DNA of 64,000 bases from Candidatus Krumholzibacteriia bacterium. GTDB lineage: Bacteria; Krumholzibacteriota; Krumholzibacteriia; JAJRXK01. Positions 1,717 through 64,000 of the stretch are shown here, in pieces. Under the pieces are notes generated by a model. The model was not told the origin of the DNA. It did not search any database and worked only from the letters and a program-made list of their open reading frames with translations. Numbering within the stretch: the first letter of the stretch is position 1; the number at the start of each line of letters is the position of its first letter. The translations under genes were made by a program, and so were the position numbers. The stretch lies in the NCBI GenBank assembly GCA_035268685.1, contig DATFKK010000015.1:1-64000 (forward strand). The letters are read 5' to 3'.

Positions 1717-3315
1717 GTGCCCAGCACCCGATTCCAGATCCCCTCGGCGTCGACCCTCGACGCCCACGAACGGACCCTCGTCCGGACCCTGGGCCTGTCT
1801 CCCGCCTCGGCCGACAGCGACGAAGACGAAGGAGTCCTGCTCGACAGTTTCGACGGCCGCCTGGTCCGCGACGGCGGTATCGCGGTCCGCCGCGACGCCC
1901 CGGACGGCGCCCGGCTGCAGTGGACCGACCTCGACCGTGCCGAGGACCGGGGGCTGCTCCGTGTCGCCCCCGCCGATACCATCGGGCCAGCCGACCTTCC
2001 CCGCGGTCCGGTCGCGGCACGCCTGGTCGGGATCCTCGACGTCCGATCCCTCGTCGCGCTGGCCCGTGTGCGCGAGCGACGGCGCCGGTGGGAGAAGCGG
2101 GACCGCCGCGGCAAGGTCGTGCTGCGTCTCCACGTCGTGGATTCGACCACCGTCATGGCCGAGGGATCGCAGACGTCGGCGTCGCTTCCGCCCCACCTCC
2201 ACCTGATCGGACTCAAGGGCTTCGACCGGGACTACGCCGCCGCGCGCACGCGGATCGACGCCCTGGAGGACACGCAGCCGGCCGCGACCCCGTGGGCCAT
2301 CGAGGTCCTCCGAGCGGCCGGACTGGAGCCCGGCCGCGATCCCGCGCGCGTCGAACTCCACCTGCGGGCCGGCACCCCGGTTCCCGACGCACTGCGCGAG
2401 ATCTTCGGCGCCTACCTCGGCGTGATCCGCGCGCACCGCGAGGGCACGCGGCGCGCCCTCGACCCCGAGTTCCTGCACGACTTCCGGGTGGCCGTCCGAC
2501 GCACCCGCGCCCTGCTCCGGGGGACGAAAGCCGCCCTGCCCCCGTCGCTGTACGAACGCTTCCGCGAGGAATTCCGGTGGTTGGCGCGGCAGACGAGTCG
2601 AGCCCGCGACCTCGACGTGTACCTGCTCGACTTCGACGACTTCACCGGACGACTGCCGCGCCCCGACCGCCCGGCCCTCGAACCCGTCCGCGTCTGGTTG
2701 CAACGCGAAACCGAACGCGAACACGAGCGCCTGGCCGACGTGCTCGCCGGCGAACGCGTCGACACGATTCTCGACGACTGGGCGGCGGCGATCCGCTCCG
2801 ACGCGTTCGGCGCCGGATCGTCGACGCGGGACCCCACGGCCGGCTCCCTCGCCGCCCGCGTCGTCGCGCGCGCCCACCGCCGGGTCCTGCGCGACGGCCG
2901 CACGATCACCGCCGACAGTCCCGACGAAGCCCTGCACGATCTCCGCAAGCGGGCCAAGGCCCTCCGCTACCTCGTCGACGGCTTCCGGGGCGCCTTCGAC
3001 CGCAAGACCGTGAAGAAGCAGATCCGACACCTGAAGGACCTGCAGGACAACCTGGGCCGACACCAGGACCGCGCGGTGCAGGTCGAGACATTGCGTCGCA
3101 TCGCGCACGAACTCGACGGGACGCCGCCGGCGACGTTCATGGCTCTCGGCTACCTCGTCGAGCAGCTCGATCGCGATCGCCACGCCCTGCGCGACGAGTT
3201 CGCCGCCCACTTCGAGGCCTACGACGCTCCGCAGCGTCGGCGGACCTTCGAGCGCATGCTCGACGCTGCTCGCCGCGCCGAGCCCGCCTCCCCGCGCGGC
3301 GAGGCCCGAGCATGA
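1717..3315 (+). CDS. CHAD domain protein with degenerate N-terminal half
   Basis: A 532-residue protein. The C-terminal half (~residues 225-520) is a CHAD domain, an alpha-helical domain that binds inorganic polyphosphate: 'HDFRVAVRRTRALL' near 254 and 'LHDLRKRAKALRYL' near 406 are its two repeat signatures, followed by 'LKDLQDNLGRHQD'. CHAD is often preceded by a CYTH triphosphate-tunnel domain; the N-terminal ~210 residues have a beta-rich pattern that could be a decayed one, but no EXEXK motif is seen. Start GTG 1717 is chosen because a promoter overlaps the region further upstream. The stop overlaps the parA-like ATG (ATGA). Confidence 0.8.
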   Translation: MPSTRFQIPSASTLDAHERTLVRTLGLSPASADSDEDEGVLLDSFDGRLVRDGGIAVRRDAPDGARLQWTDLDRAEDRGLLRVAPADTIGPADLPRGPVAARLVGILDVRSLVALARVRERRRRWEKRDRRGKVVLRLHVVDSTTVMAEGSQTSASLPPHLHLIGLKGFDRDYAAARTRIDALEDTQPAATPWAIEVLRAAGLEPGRDPARVELHLRAGTPVPDALREIFGAYLGVIRAHREGTRRALDPEFLHDFRVAVRRTRALLRGTKAALPPSLYERFREEFRWLARQTSRARDLDVYLLDFDDFTGRLPRPDRPALEPVRVWLQRETEREHERLADVLAGERVDTILDDWAAAIRSDAFGAGSSTRDPTAGSLAARVVARAHRRVLRDGRTITADSPDEALHDLRKRAKALRYLVDGFRGAFDRKTVKKQIRHLKDLQDNLGRHQDRAVQVETLRRIAHELDGTPPATFMALGYLVEQLDRDRHALRDEFAAHFEAYDAPQRRRTFERMLDAARRAEPASPRGEARA

Positions 3316-4127
3316 AGACCCTGGCCCTGTATTCCATCAAGGGAGGTGTGGGGAAGACCTCGGCAGCGGTGAACCTCGCCTGGATCGCGGCCGAACGCGG
3401 AGGCCGCGTCCTGCTCTGGGATCTCGACCCGCAGGCGGCCACCACCTGGTTCCTGCGCGTGCGGGCGCGCATCCCCGGCGGTGGCCGGCACCTCCTCCAC
3501 GGCGACGGCAACCTCCGCGAGCGTGTGCTCGCCTCCGACCATCCGCGCCTCGACCTGCTGCCGGCCGCACTGTCGTTGCGCAAGCTGGAGCGGCGGCTCG
3601 AACGGAAGGGGCCGGCCACCGATCGTATCGCCCGCCGGCTGGCCGGCGTCGCCGAGGACTACGACACGGTGATCCTCGACTGCCCGCCGGGCATTTCGCT
3701 CATGGCCGAGAACGTCTTCGAGGCGGCCAACGCCCTGGTCGTACCGGTGATCCCCTCGCCCCTGTCCGTCCGCACGCTCCACCAGTTGGTGCAGTTCCTC
3801 GTGCCGCGCCGATGGGACCACCGCACCGTGCTCCCGTTCTTCTCGATGGTCGATCGCCGGAAGAGCCTGCACCGGGACGTGGTCTCCCGCCTCTCGGCCG
3901 AGACGCCGGCGGTGCTCGCCGCCTCGATCCCCAACGCGACCGGGGTCGAGCGGATGGGGGTGCACCGGGCCCCACTGGTCGGCACCGCCCCCCGATCCGC
4001 CGCGGCGCGCGCCTACGAGGCTCTCCACGACCTCCTCGAGGACGCCCTCTACGGAACCGATCCCGTCGACCGCTCCGCACGCGCGCTCGAACACCGGCTC
4101 GACGTTGGCGGTCCGCGACGCATGTGA
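3312..4127 (+). CDS. ParA/MinD-family ATPase
   Basis: A 271-residue P-loop ATPase of the ParA/Soj type. It has the deviant Walker A 'KGGVGKT' (residues 10-16), switch I 'LLWDLDPQAATT' and Walker B 'VILDCPPG' (~120). Such proteins use ATP-dependent dimerisation on DNA or membranes to position cargo. No ParB lies next to it. Its partner is a CHAD protein with a 4-bp overlap, so a role in placing polyphosphate granules or a related structure is a reasonable inference rather than chromosome partitioning. This ParA-CHAD link is suggested only by gene order. Confidence 0.85.
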   Translation: MKTLALYSIKGGVGKTSAAVNLAWIAAERGGRVLLWDLDPQAATTWFLRVRARIPGGGRHLLHGDGNLRERVLASDHPRLDLLPAALSLRKLERRLERKGPATDRIARRLAGVAEDYDTVILDCPPGISLMAENVFEAANALVVPVIPSPLSVRTLHQLVQFLVPRRWDHRTVLPFFSMVDRRKSLHRDVVSRLSAETPAVLAASIPNATGVERMGVHRAPLVGTAPRSAAARAYEALHDLLEDALYGTDPVDRSARALEHRLDVGGPRRM

Positions 4128-4196
4128 CACCCTGGGCGCAACCCGGCCCTCCGCGGCTGCGTCCTCCTCGCACCGCCGTCCGCCCGAAGGACCTCC

Positions 4197-5948
4197 ATGG
4201 ATTCCGCTGCCGCGCCGACGACCGACCGCCGCGTTCCCGCCCACTTCCCCGGCGAACGCGGCTCGAGTGGCCCCGACGAGGGGGTCCGGTCCGGATTGCG
4301 AATCGCCGGCGCGATCGTCGCCGCCATCGCCGTCCTCGTGGCGATCGCGGAGTTCGCCGTCGGGCCGCGGCTGCTCCCCGCCGCAGCCACGGCTCCGCAC
4401 GCGGATCCCGGCGTCGCCCTCGTCGCACGCGGGTTGGTCGTCGCCGGAGTGATCCTGGGCCTGCTCGTCCACGTGGTGGCTCGCCACGGACGGATGACCA
4501 CGCGCCAGCTCGTCCACCTGGGCCTTTTCACGGAACTCCTCGGGGCGCTCCTGCTGGCCACCCACAGCCTGCTGGTGCACCGCACCGAGACGTCGGCGGG
4601 CCTGGATCCGACGGTCGACGGTCCCACCCTGGTGGGCCTGTGGGTCCTGCTGCTCCCCCTGGCGGTGCGACCTTCGTGGACCTGGGCCCTGGCCGTCGGC
4701 CTGGTGTCGGTGGCCCTCGAGCCGGGCCTGATCCTTCTGCAGTCGACCCTGGCGACCACCCTGGAGACCGACGTCGGAGCCACCGTGTGGGCCTTCCGCG
4801 CGAACTACCTGTGCGCGGCGCTGGCCGTACTACCGGCCCTGGCGCTCGAGCGATCCCGGCGTCGCGCCGACGAGGAGCGCCGCCGTGCCGAATACGCCGT
4901 CGAGGAGCGGATCGACGGCGCGGGCCCCGGTGAAGTGTGGCGCGCCACGCACCCGCGGCTGGTCCGGCCGGTGGCGGTGCGGATCGTCCGGCCGGCGAGG
5001 GGGGCGGCCTCGGAGCCTTCGCCCACGGTCCTCGACGACTTCGCGCGGGCGGCGGCCGAGGCCGCGCAGCTCGAGTCACCCCACACCGTCGCCACCCTCG
5101 ACCACGGACTCGCGGCCGACGGAACCTTCTACGTCGTCTCGGAGTGGCTCACGGGCCTGGACCTGCAGCGCCTGGTCGAGGACTTCGGGCCCCTCCCGGA
5201 GGAACGCGTCGGCTATCTGCTGGGCCAGGTGTGCCACGCCTTGCACGACGCCCACCTCCGCGGGCTCGCGCACGGCGACCTGAAGCCGGCGAACGTATTC
5301 ACCTGCGTGAAGGGCATCGAGGTCGACTTCGTGAAGGTCGGCGACTTCGGGCTCGACGCGCCGGTGATCCCCGAAGCCGACGGCGCTCGCGGAGTGGCAC
5401 GCGGGACGCCGGCCGTGCTGGCCCCCGAGCGGGTCTCGGGCGCGCCACCCGACGTGCGCAGCGACCTCTACGCACTCGGCTGCCTGGCCCACTGGCTGCT
5501 CTGCGCAGAACCGGTCTTCGCAGGTGGACCGGTCGAGGTCATGGCCCGGCAACTCGGCGACGAGCCGACGCCCATCCGGGAGCGGATCGAACGGACCCTC
5601 GACCCCGGTCTCGAGGCCGTGGTCACGGAGTGCCTGCGAAAGGATCCCGCCGCCCGGCCGGTGGACGCGCGCGAGGTCGGGCGACGGATCGCGGCCACGG
5701 GGCTCGCGGGTCGCTGGTCCGAATCGGAGTGTCGCGCCTGGTGGCACGACCATGCACCGGAGATGCTCGGCGAATCGGGCGGCCCGTCCGGGGACCCGGT
5801 CGAGGCCGGAGAACCTCCGGTGGGCACCACCCTGCGCACGGAGGACGAGTCCGCGGTTCCGGCTGCGCCCGAACCGTCGTTCTTCCGTCGAAGAGCCGCC
5901 CGACGACGTGACACGCCCGAGGGACCCGACCACACGTCCGAGGCCTAG
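4197..5948 (+). CDS. Membrane Hanks-type Ser/Thr kinase, catalytic Lys replaced
   Basis: A 583-residue protein with about six N-terminal membrane segments (~35-55, 75-95, 103-122, 143-157, 161-181, 201-217) followed by a short basic coiled linker and a kinase domain (~236-500). Kinase motifs seen: 'HGDLKPAN' (359-366, catalytic D361), 'DFG' (383-385), 'APE' (409-411), 'DLYALG'. The ATP-anchoring VAIK lysine is replaced by arginine (VAVR, R262) and the glycine loop 'GAGPGEVW' is degenerate. It may be weak, atypical or inactive. The topology (membrane part first, kinase last) differs from PknB, where sensor domains are C-terminal. The last bases overlap the convergent OsmC stop. Confidence 0.85.
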   Translation: MDSAAAPTTDRRVPAHFPGERGSSGPDEGVRSGLRIAGAIVAAIAVLVAIAEFAVGPRLLPAAATAPHADPGVALVARGLVVAGVILGLLVHVVARHGRMTTRQLVHLGLFTELLGALLLATHSLLVHRTETSAGLDPTVDGPTLVGLWVLLLPLAVRPSWTWALAVGLVSVALEPGLILLQSTLATTLETDVGATVWAFRANYLCAALAVLPALALERSRRRADEERRRAEYAVEERIDGAGPGEVWRATHPRLVRPVAVRIVRPARGAASEPSPTVLDDFARAAAEAAQLESPHTVATLDHGLAADGTFYVVSEWLTGLDLQRLVEDFGPLPEERVGYLLGQVCHALHDAHLRGLAHGDLKPANVFTCVKGIEVDFVKVGDFGLDAPVIPEADGARGVARGTPAVLAPERVSGAPPDVRSDLYALGCLAHWLLCAEPVFAGGPVEVMARQLGDEPTPIRERIERTLDPGLEAVVTECLRKDPAARPVDAREVGRRIAATGLAGRWSESECRAWWHDHAPEMLGESGGPSGDPVEAGEPPVGTTLRTEDESAVPAAPEPSFFRRRAARRRDTPEGPDHTSEA

Positions 5949-61873: not shown

Positions 61874-62641
61874 TCAGGGGCCGCCCGGAAGCAGCCGGCG
61901 TGCGGAATCGTGGCCGAACTCGAGGCACTCGAGACGCCGCTCGGTGACCAGTGGCGGCGCAGCACGGCGGGATCGCGCCGACCCTTCGCCCTCGGTCGTC
62001 GTGGTGACCGTCGAGAGCGTCGTCGCCGTCAGCAGTCCCGCCAACGGAACCTGCGGACTGATCGTGGCCTCGGCCCGCAGCCGGGTGCGCACGACGAGGG
62101 TCGAACGACCGATCGTGCGCTCCTCGCGTCGTTCCTCGACCAGTCGCACACGCTCGCGGGAGATCGTCCGGGAGGCGATGGTCGAGTCCGTCAGCGCCGT
62201 GCGTTCCACCTGCGGATCGACGAAGGGATCGGTCAGATGACGGCGGACCAGCCGGCGATCGCGGTAGGACTCGACGTCCTCGACGATCCACCGTCCGTCG
62301 CGCTCCCGCCGCAACAGGCTGTCGACGGCCGCGAGCGGATCGCCGTCCCGTCGCAGGGCGTCGGGCCGCAAGAGGATGCGATCGACCGTCCCGGCCCCAC
62401 GACTGCGGAGTTCGAGCCAGCGGCGCTCGGGCACCTCGGCCGCATACACGTGCACGGTCACCGTGTCCACCAGCGCTCCGTCCTCGGTGATCTCGACCTG
62501 TGCGTAGGTGGCGAAGTCGCCCGGCTCGAAGCGCACGTCGACCAGGTCGCGGCGCCACCACGAGAGCAGCTCCGAGGCCGACGCGACCGAGGGCCACACG
62601 ACGAGGGCCAGCAACACCGACGACACCACGACCCGGAACAC
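61874..62641 (-). CDS. Secreted protein of unknown function
   Basis: A ~255-residue exported protein. Signal 'VVVSSVLLALVVWPSVASA' is clear. The mature part has beta strands alternating with Arg/Glu-rich pieces ('YAQVEITEDGALVDTVTVHV', 'ERRWLELRSRGAGTVDRILL'). No family recognised. Start is uncertain: GTG 62641 opens directly into the signal; ATG 62728 overlaps the cytochrome gene and adds a long basic leader. Same strand as, and just after, the cytochrome fusion. Confidence 0.6.
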   Translation of the reverse strand: MFRVVVSSVLLALVVWPSVASASELLSWWRRDLVDVRFEPGDFATYAQVEITEDGALVDTVTVHVYAAEVPERRWLELRSRGAGTVDRILLRPDALRRDGDPLAAVDSLLRRERDGRWIVEDVESYRDRRLVRRHLTDPFVDPQVERTALTDSTIASRTISRERVRLVEERREERTIGRSTLVVRTRLRAEATISPQVPLAGLLTATTLSTVTTTTEGEGSARSRRAAPPLVTERRLECLEFGHDSARRLLPGGP

Positions 62642-62696
62642 CGGACGCCCGGGCGTCCGGCCCGGGCGTCCGTGCGAGCGCGGAGCGGAGGTCCGC

Positions 62697-64000
62697 TCAG
62701 TGCGCGATCTGGGCCCAGTAGGTCTCATAGTCGAAGTCCGGGCTGTTCTCCTGGTCGTGGCAGGTGACGCAGGATTCACGCGCCATCGCATTCCAGGTTC
62801 CGTCGCGGGCGTGCTCCGTGCCGTAGCCGTGGCAGGCCTCGCACTGGACGTTCTTCAACGCCTCGCGTCCCGGCACGGACGCATCCGCGACCTGGTCGTA
62901 GCCGTTCTTCCAGTCGAAGCCGACCACGTGACACGACACGCACTCGGGATTCTGGTCCTGGCCCTTCGACACCAGCGACTGGAACGCCCGGGCATGGGCG
63001 GACTCGGCGTAGGAACGCGCCGCGTCGGTGTGGCACCGCGCACAGTTGTGCACACCCAGGAACTTCTCGTCGGCCGAACCGTGGGTCCGCGGGTGGTCGA
63101 AGGACTCGACCTTGCCGATCTGCTCCTTGTTCCGGGCATCGAAGGCGTCGACGGCCTCGCGGATCTCCCCGATCTCGGGGTTGTTCTTGTCGAGGGTGTG
63201 GATGGTGACGGCGGCGTCCTCGATCTGCCCGTCGGGCGTGACGACCATGTCGAGCTGACCGACGTAGCGGCCCTCGTGGTTGGCCGCCACGAGTACGATG
63301 TCGCCGTTCACCCGGTTCACGCGGCGGTACTGCCGCGGGTCGCGTCCCTCGATGCAGATGTCGATCCCCGTGCCCGGGCCCATGTCCATGAGCATCTGTC
63401 GGATCTCCGCGCTCGGCATCTGGGCGAGCAGGATGATCAGGTCGGCTTCTTCGCGCAACGTGGGGAGCACGCCCTCGAGCGCGTCGCGCGGCGACTGCGT
63501 CGTGAAGTTGTCGGCCGACGCGGTCATGGTGACGATCGGGTAGCGGGGGCTGATCACCGACACGTAGCCCACCTTCAGCCCCGCGACCTCACGGATCACG
63601 TAGGGCGGGAAGAGCTCGTCGGGATCGGCGTCCCCGATCGCGAGGTTGGCGTTGGTGAACAGGAATCCGTGCTCACGCTCGGCCTGGCGCAGGAAGTCCA
63701 GACCGTAGTTGAGGTCGTTCGGGCCGACGCCGAAGACCTCGTAGCCGAGTTGCTCGGTGTAGTCGAGCAGGAACTCGGTCTGTCGCCGTTCGGCCTCGCG
63801 GCGGTGGCCGAACAGGTTGCCCGCGTCGATCACGAAGGTGTTCTCGCGAGCCTCACGCACGTTCCGAAACAAGGCGGCCCTCCGGGCCAGCCCGCCCATG
63901 GGGCGGCTCTTTCACCCACAGGGCGCGATCTTCCCCGACACGGAACCGTGGTACATCATGGTGAGTTCGATCGAATCCTGCGCGGTCGCGGGACGGGCGG
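62697..64000 (-). CDS. 5'-nucleotidase-like/tetraheme cytochrome c fusion, probable selenoprotein (5' end off window)
   Basis: The frame enters from the right edge and reads 'SIELTMMYHGSVSGKIAPCG', then TGA (63912-63914), then 'KSRPMGGLARRAALFRNV' and on to a stop at 62697. Related 5'-nucleotidase-like proteins have 'PCGCK...GGLARR' here, so the TGA stands in the second Cys of CGC and is most simply read as selenocysteine. The ~265-residue phosphatase-like part is followed by four heme motifs (CARCH, CVSCH, CEACH, CVTCH), typical of cytochrome c554-like proteins with 'YAESAHARAFQSL'. Probably a periplasmic electron-transfer protein; the phosphatase metal motifs look degenerate. Confidence 0.8.
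63872..63893 (-). promoter_or_regulatory. SECIS-like hairpin after the in-frame TGA
   Basis: Counting from the base after the TGA, 20-22 (GGC) pairs with 37-39, U23 is bulged, 24-28 (GGCCC) pairs with 32-36, and the apical loop 29-31 is GGA. This bulged U plus a loop beginning with G closely follows the E. coli fdhF SECIS, and the loop distance lies in the range accepted for bacterial SECIS. It is also coding sequence. Confidence 0.7.
63912..63914 (-). other. Probable selenocysteine codon (TGA)
   Basis: Single in-frame TGA inside an otherwise open, homologous reading frame, at the position of the second Cys in a CGC motif. Best read as Sec; a sequencing error or a true gene break is the alternative. 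Confidence 0.75.

Follow-up and report, generated by a model that had tools for sequence, protein, structure and literature searches.

With near certainty, the minus-strand gene at the far end of the window (the whole stretch of 64,000 nucleotides analysed) is a selenocysteine (Sec)-encoding member of the known UshA-like PCGU selenoprotein family NF041198. We observed that the frame is open on both sides of a TGA at 63914-63912 (...GSVSGKIAPCG-U-KSRPMGGLARR...), and that one frame running across this codon joins a secreted 5′-nucleotidase-like domain to four CxxCH haem motifs. The first-pass annotation had proposed both an intact in-frame motif around the TGA and a nucleotidase-like/tetrahaem cytochrome fusion, and both hold. 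The start of the gene lies 82 bases beyond the window, with AGGAGG six bases 5′ of the ATG. With the TGA read as Sec, the product counts 461 aa, Sec being residue 57; its N-terminus is a signal peptide, MLRPGSVGGGVRQTLGALALFVLTVVLPARPATAQ, and its sequence around Sec is DSIELTMMYHGSVSGKIAPCG-U-KSRPMGGLARRAALF. The features are as follows:

62697..64000 inside the window, minus strand: UshA-like (seleno)protein gene, its ATG beyond the window at contig position C15:64082
63912..63914, minus strand: in-frame UGA of PCG-U, predicted Sec (from the TGA/Cys column in the relatives examined and the Sec machinery)
63873..63892, minus strand: bacterial SECIS-like hairpin, with 3 bp below and 5 bp above a bulged U and its GGA loop at 63883-63881
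63129..63971, minus strand: 5′-nucleotidase/calcineurin-like phosphoesterase-fold domain with a degraded metal site
62700..63062, minus strand: tetrahaem cytochrome c554-like domain (match to Pfam PF13435 and PDB 1bvb)
63030-63044, 62928-62942, 62829-62843 and 62757-62771, minus strand: CxxCH motifs, four also in full-length relatives
61874..62680, minus strand: secreted protein without Pfam match, next gene downstream of the UshA-like gene

Family membership

The window protein scored 277 bits against NCBIfam NF041198 (UshA_like_PCGU, ‘UshA-like (seleno)protein’), a marginal result only 2 bits above the curated cut-off of 275. Both halves of the model match, its positions 356-519 (the haem part) being matched by C15:62724-63197, and the trait of the family, PCGU (CxU) with Cys homologues, is present in the window protein. 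The latter thus resembles NF041198 (COG0737 UshA-like, CxU; Zhang and Gladyshev 2008) in its PCGU, its nucleotidase-like N-terminal part and its C-terminal haem part, and differs from most relatives of this type by more degraded metal-ligand positions. Similarity to NF049981, the UshA-like (seleno)protein family 2, is weak (44 bits for a cut-off of 140), and the motif there is CxxU instead of CxU.

The family is also in the literature: the 2008 Global Ocean Sampling table has an entry ‘COG0737, UshA-like, CxU’ with 76 sequences, counted already then among previously described families (PMC2398784), and the same protein (COG0737, CxU) appears in the selenoprotein tables of two later reviews, PMC9312934 and PMC13188914. 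Since NF041198 includes the cytochrome part and published tables list the family, neither the selenoprotein nor the cytochrome fusion is new. The first-pass annotation knew of no described selenoprotein in this family and suggested a new Sec family; the first statement is overturned by the 2008 catalogue and by the passing NF041198 score, the second by the curated model itself, within which the fusion already falls. The divergence of the window subgroup, barely above the cut-off, could speak for a new family, but with the UshA-like selenoprotein in both NF041198 and the published tables, and with the fusion inside the model, we consider such a reading extremely improbable.

Decoding of the in-frame UGA

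Sec machinery was sought in the source genome (4.59 Mb in 202 contigs, 99% complete). A tRNA-Sec was detected at 74.2 bits (cut-off 47), ARAGORN likewise reporting a tRNA-SeC with anticodon TCA, and selA (466 bits), selB (336 bits) and selD (325 bits) all scored above their curated cut-offs. All four of selA, selB, selC and selD, whose absence the first-pass annotation had named as an argument against Sec, are therefore present. The selD gene (L019, G000:C87:29957-30889) carries one in-frame TGA at the usual active site, in a GUAAK motif, so that it is probably a second selenoprotein of this genome. The UshA-like gene supports Sec use in Candidatus Krumholzibacteriota; in the open-access literature, no paper was found that names Krumholzibacteriota together with selenoproteins.

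Relatives were searched in genome contigs: a single protein as query returned nothing, and an alignment query succeeded. Among 80 genomes of the phylum, a match to the family model was present in all 80, many of these matches containing exactly one TGA. The motif in the 80 named loci was CGU (TGA) in 57, CGC in 14, CTC in one and AGU, SGU or GGU in eight, so that the Sec position is occupied only by Sec or Cys, and relatives with Cys in the TGA column exist as the first-pass annotation had stated. A maximum-likelihood tree requires at least 5 changes of the Sec/Cys state. At least 65 relatives, from several phyla, share this TGA together with the conserved sequence that precedes it. Alignment rows were chosen by the pattern CG.GG..R, nine loci missed by the pattern being checked by tblastn.

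A different reading would take the TGA as a true stop or an assembly error, with a shorter protein starting at ATG 63899 (MGGLARR...) and the PCG stretch not translated with it; an ATG four codons past the TGA indeed opens an ORF of 400 aa. But Cys relatives read straight through the TGA column, and the codon and the stretch preceding it persist across phyla: identical errors would be needed in so many independent assemblies that an assembly error is not credible. A start at ATG 63899 would moreover delete the export signal needed for c-type haems, and the upstream stretch in relatives contradicts homologues that begin at MGGLARR without an upstream domain. The Sec/Cys pairs thus make a sequencing error or a late start very unlikely, and we give this reading hardly any weight. 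Decoding of TGA 63914-63912 as Sec is almost certain, given the full machinery and the retention of codon and RNA hairpin (described below) in dozens of relatives. The first-pass prediction of Sec is in this way upheld by Sec/Cys exchange, by a covarying SECIS-like hairpin and by the four sel genes.

Some of the loci depart from the common pattern. L087 / L106 (G000:C95:8796-9635), in the same genome, is a Cys paralogue of the UshA-like protein, DDCGCPSRPLGGLARR, in a 786-aa frame with no CxxCH found near the match. L078, L079 and L080 are short relatives (about 317 aa) without CxxCH and with one in-frame TGA each, in which the pattern search gave no CGU..GG motif; L078 scored above the cut-off of neither NF041198 nor NF049981. 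On an Eisenbacteria contig (L138), two UshA-like matches, at positions 3001 and about 5779, are separated by a few kilobases.

The hairpin downstream of the UGA

The hairpin at 63892-63873 reads GGC-U-GGCCC-GGA-GGGCC-GCC: eight pairs with a bulged U, a GGA loop at +29 to +31 nt after the TGA and a folding energy of -13.2 kcal/mol. It folds as the first-pass annotation had drawn it. The E. coli fdhF SECIS likewise combines a bulged U with GG in the apical loop; the stem sequence of the window hairpin differs from that element, and the bulge is not kept in all relatives of the UshA-like family, other members having a continuous stem of 9-10 bp. Rules for bSECIS elements call for a loop of 3-9 nt, an upper stem of 4-16 bp, a G in the first two loop bases, a spacing of 16-37 nt and an MFE of at most -7.5 (PMC13188914). 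The window hairpin agrees with them by its GGA loop, the 5 bp above the bulge, its energy and its spacing of 28 nt, a distance that the first-pass annotation had rightly called acceptable. An Rfam search with the hairpin matched no model.

The energy alone is unremarkable in GC-rich DNA: an equally good fold arises in 19 of 200 shuffled sequences, z is -0.5 for a wider 51-nt fold, and synonymous shuffles are exceeded only modestly for each sequence (0.043 for the window, median 0.07). Folding-energy z-scores are thus uninformative for this hairpin. Comparison of relatives gave a sharper profile. In 51 TGA homologues the position of the loop is unchanged, the stem averages 8.3 pairs and the loop opens with GG in 47; the 15 Cys homologues, mostly without hairpin, show 0.87 pairs at this position. 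Pair 24-36 joins two third codon positions (a Leu/Val/Ile codon and, as a rule, an Ala codon) where changes are silent; it is GC, GU, CG, UG, UA or AU in 46 of 49 distinct sequences for 26.4 expected, a value reached in 0 of 100,000 permutations. In the count made by the covariation program itself, 97.5% of cells are paired and the covariation score is 0.293, compared with 0.108 after shuffling (0/500) and at most 0.114 in a sliding control; the permutation figures are inflated by the shared ancestry of the sequences, an effect from which the sliding control is free.

The hairpin is therefore more than chance, since its position is conserved in TGA homologues and it covaries at silent positions. 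The first-pass view that such a hairpin together with a Cys-to-TGA replacement is hard to explain by chance is borne out by conservation and covariation, and gains nothing from folding energy alone. For comparative work, the family provides a clean example of a SECIS hairpin kept in position within a coding sequence. The +29 position of the hairpin does not hold in every case in more distant phyla. Two Cys homologues with TGT (L135:2974-4233 and L176:2974-4332) still have 6-9 pairs around +29, possibly a fossil SECIS.

Fold, proposed role and a clade without the partner cysteine

An AlphaFold model computed from 72 aligned sequences (pLDDT 91, pTM 0.85) matches 5′-nucleotidases in the PDB with E ~1e-21, and the haem part matches cytochrome c554 by sequence (PDB 1bvb, E = 8e-8). 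The protein thus shares its catalytic-domain fold with 5′-nucleotidase/UshA/CD73 and with the thiosulfohydrolase SoxB. Unlike these enzymes, it lacks the di-metal ligands and carries a tetrahaem domain in place of the nucleotide-binding C-terminal domain. The tetrahaem domain is like the cytochrome c554 of Nitrosomonas (PF13435, PDB 1bvb), but c554 is a tetrahaem protein on its own, with neither Sec nor a nucleotidase domain. The eight di-metal ligand positions, which we assign by what we take to be the UshA ligand numbering, are S, S, N, P, N, Q, R and P in the window protein, so that the ligand set DxH, GDxxxG, GNHE, H and GHxH is absent from it. In the 72 relatives these positions are each kept in at most 47 (D in 47, D in 46, H in 41 and H in 40), and GNHE is lost across the family. 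CG[U/C], GG..R, four CxxCH and two further His are invariant across the same 72, CG and GG..R appearing so partly by construction because the rows were chosen by CG.GG..R.

An active metallophosphoesterase (a nucleotidase or SoxB-like hydrolase), with Sec only as an accessory metal ligand or regulatory switch, would suit the fold and the best sequence relatives (5′-nucleotidases, YfkN, SoxB), as well as the D, D, H and H positions kept in about 40-47 of the 72 relatives. We consider it unlikely for the window protein: all aligned ligand positions are changed here, GNHE is gone family-wide, and the invariant residues are CG[U/C], GG..R and the haem ligands. Many relatives keep some metal ligands and may have a metal role. 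We favour a redox enzyme over a phosphoesterase, since all eight aligned metal ligands are lost and the adjacent Cys-Gly-Sec is kept. For the family as a whole, loss of the metal site beside a conserved Sec/Cys suggests a redox function.

In the scheme we propose for this redox enzyme, SelB, guided by the hairpin with its loop starting 29 nt downstream, would insert Sec at UGA 63914-63912, and the protein would leave through its signal peptide. The C-terminal domain, to judge from its motifs, would bind four c-type haems. The ancestral hydrolase site would have been given up, and its place as active site would have been taken by the Sec/Cys motif that follows the first strand, beside the former metal pocket: selenol/selenylsulfide chemistry may take place at CGU, with the haems carrying electrons. 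The likeliest guess for the substrate is a sulfur or selenium compound, or a protein disulfide. Our best guess is a nucleotidase fold with a decayed metal site that carries, in the periplasm, a Sec redox centre connected to haems, and we hold the chances for and against a haem-coupled redox role to be evenly balanced.

Gene neighbourhoods were compared for 19 loci. In 15 of them (cluster 1) an lptD-like outer-membrane assembly gene stands directly upstream of the UshA-like gene; genes for a DnaQ-type exonuclease and for a secreted protein lacking any Pfam match are frequent downstream. This context suggests that the UshA-like protein is located at the envelope; the 19 neighbourhoods indicated no functional pathway. 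The gene at 61874..62680 has homologues in the corresponding position in relatives; for the window copy, this homology was judged by eye. Gene order is conserved in many Krumholzibacteriota (L009:4257-8128 and its relatives L091-L108), running from a ROK kinase through the lptD-like gene and the UshA-like selenoprotein to the unknown secreted protein and the exonuclease.

The eight loci with AGU, SGU or GGU instead of the partner Cys (L136, L141, L145, L148, L150, L151, L162 and L166, each with a match near 3001-4260) form one well supported clade on the tree. TGA, GG-loop hairpin and haems are all retained in this clade, whose members have two new Cys in common, at positions that correspond to residues 116 and 230 of the window protein. 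If real, the loss of the partner Cys would mean that Sec works here without its neighbour, perhaps with a relocated partner. We advance, tentatively and with somewhat more doubt than confidence, that a hydrolase fold has become a haem-wired selenol redox enzyme and that, in this clade, Sec itself and not the CxU pair does the work. Should Sec react there by itself, or with a relocated Cys as partner, its mechanism would be unlike that of the usual Cys-Sec pair. Two of these proteins were scored against NF041198 and gave 195 and 221 bits, both under the cut-off; one of the two has a lipoprotein-like signal at its N-terminus.
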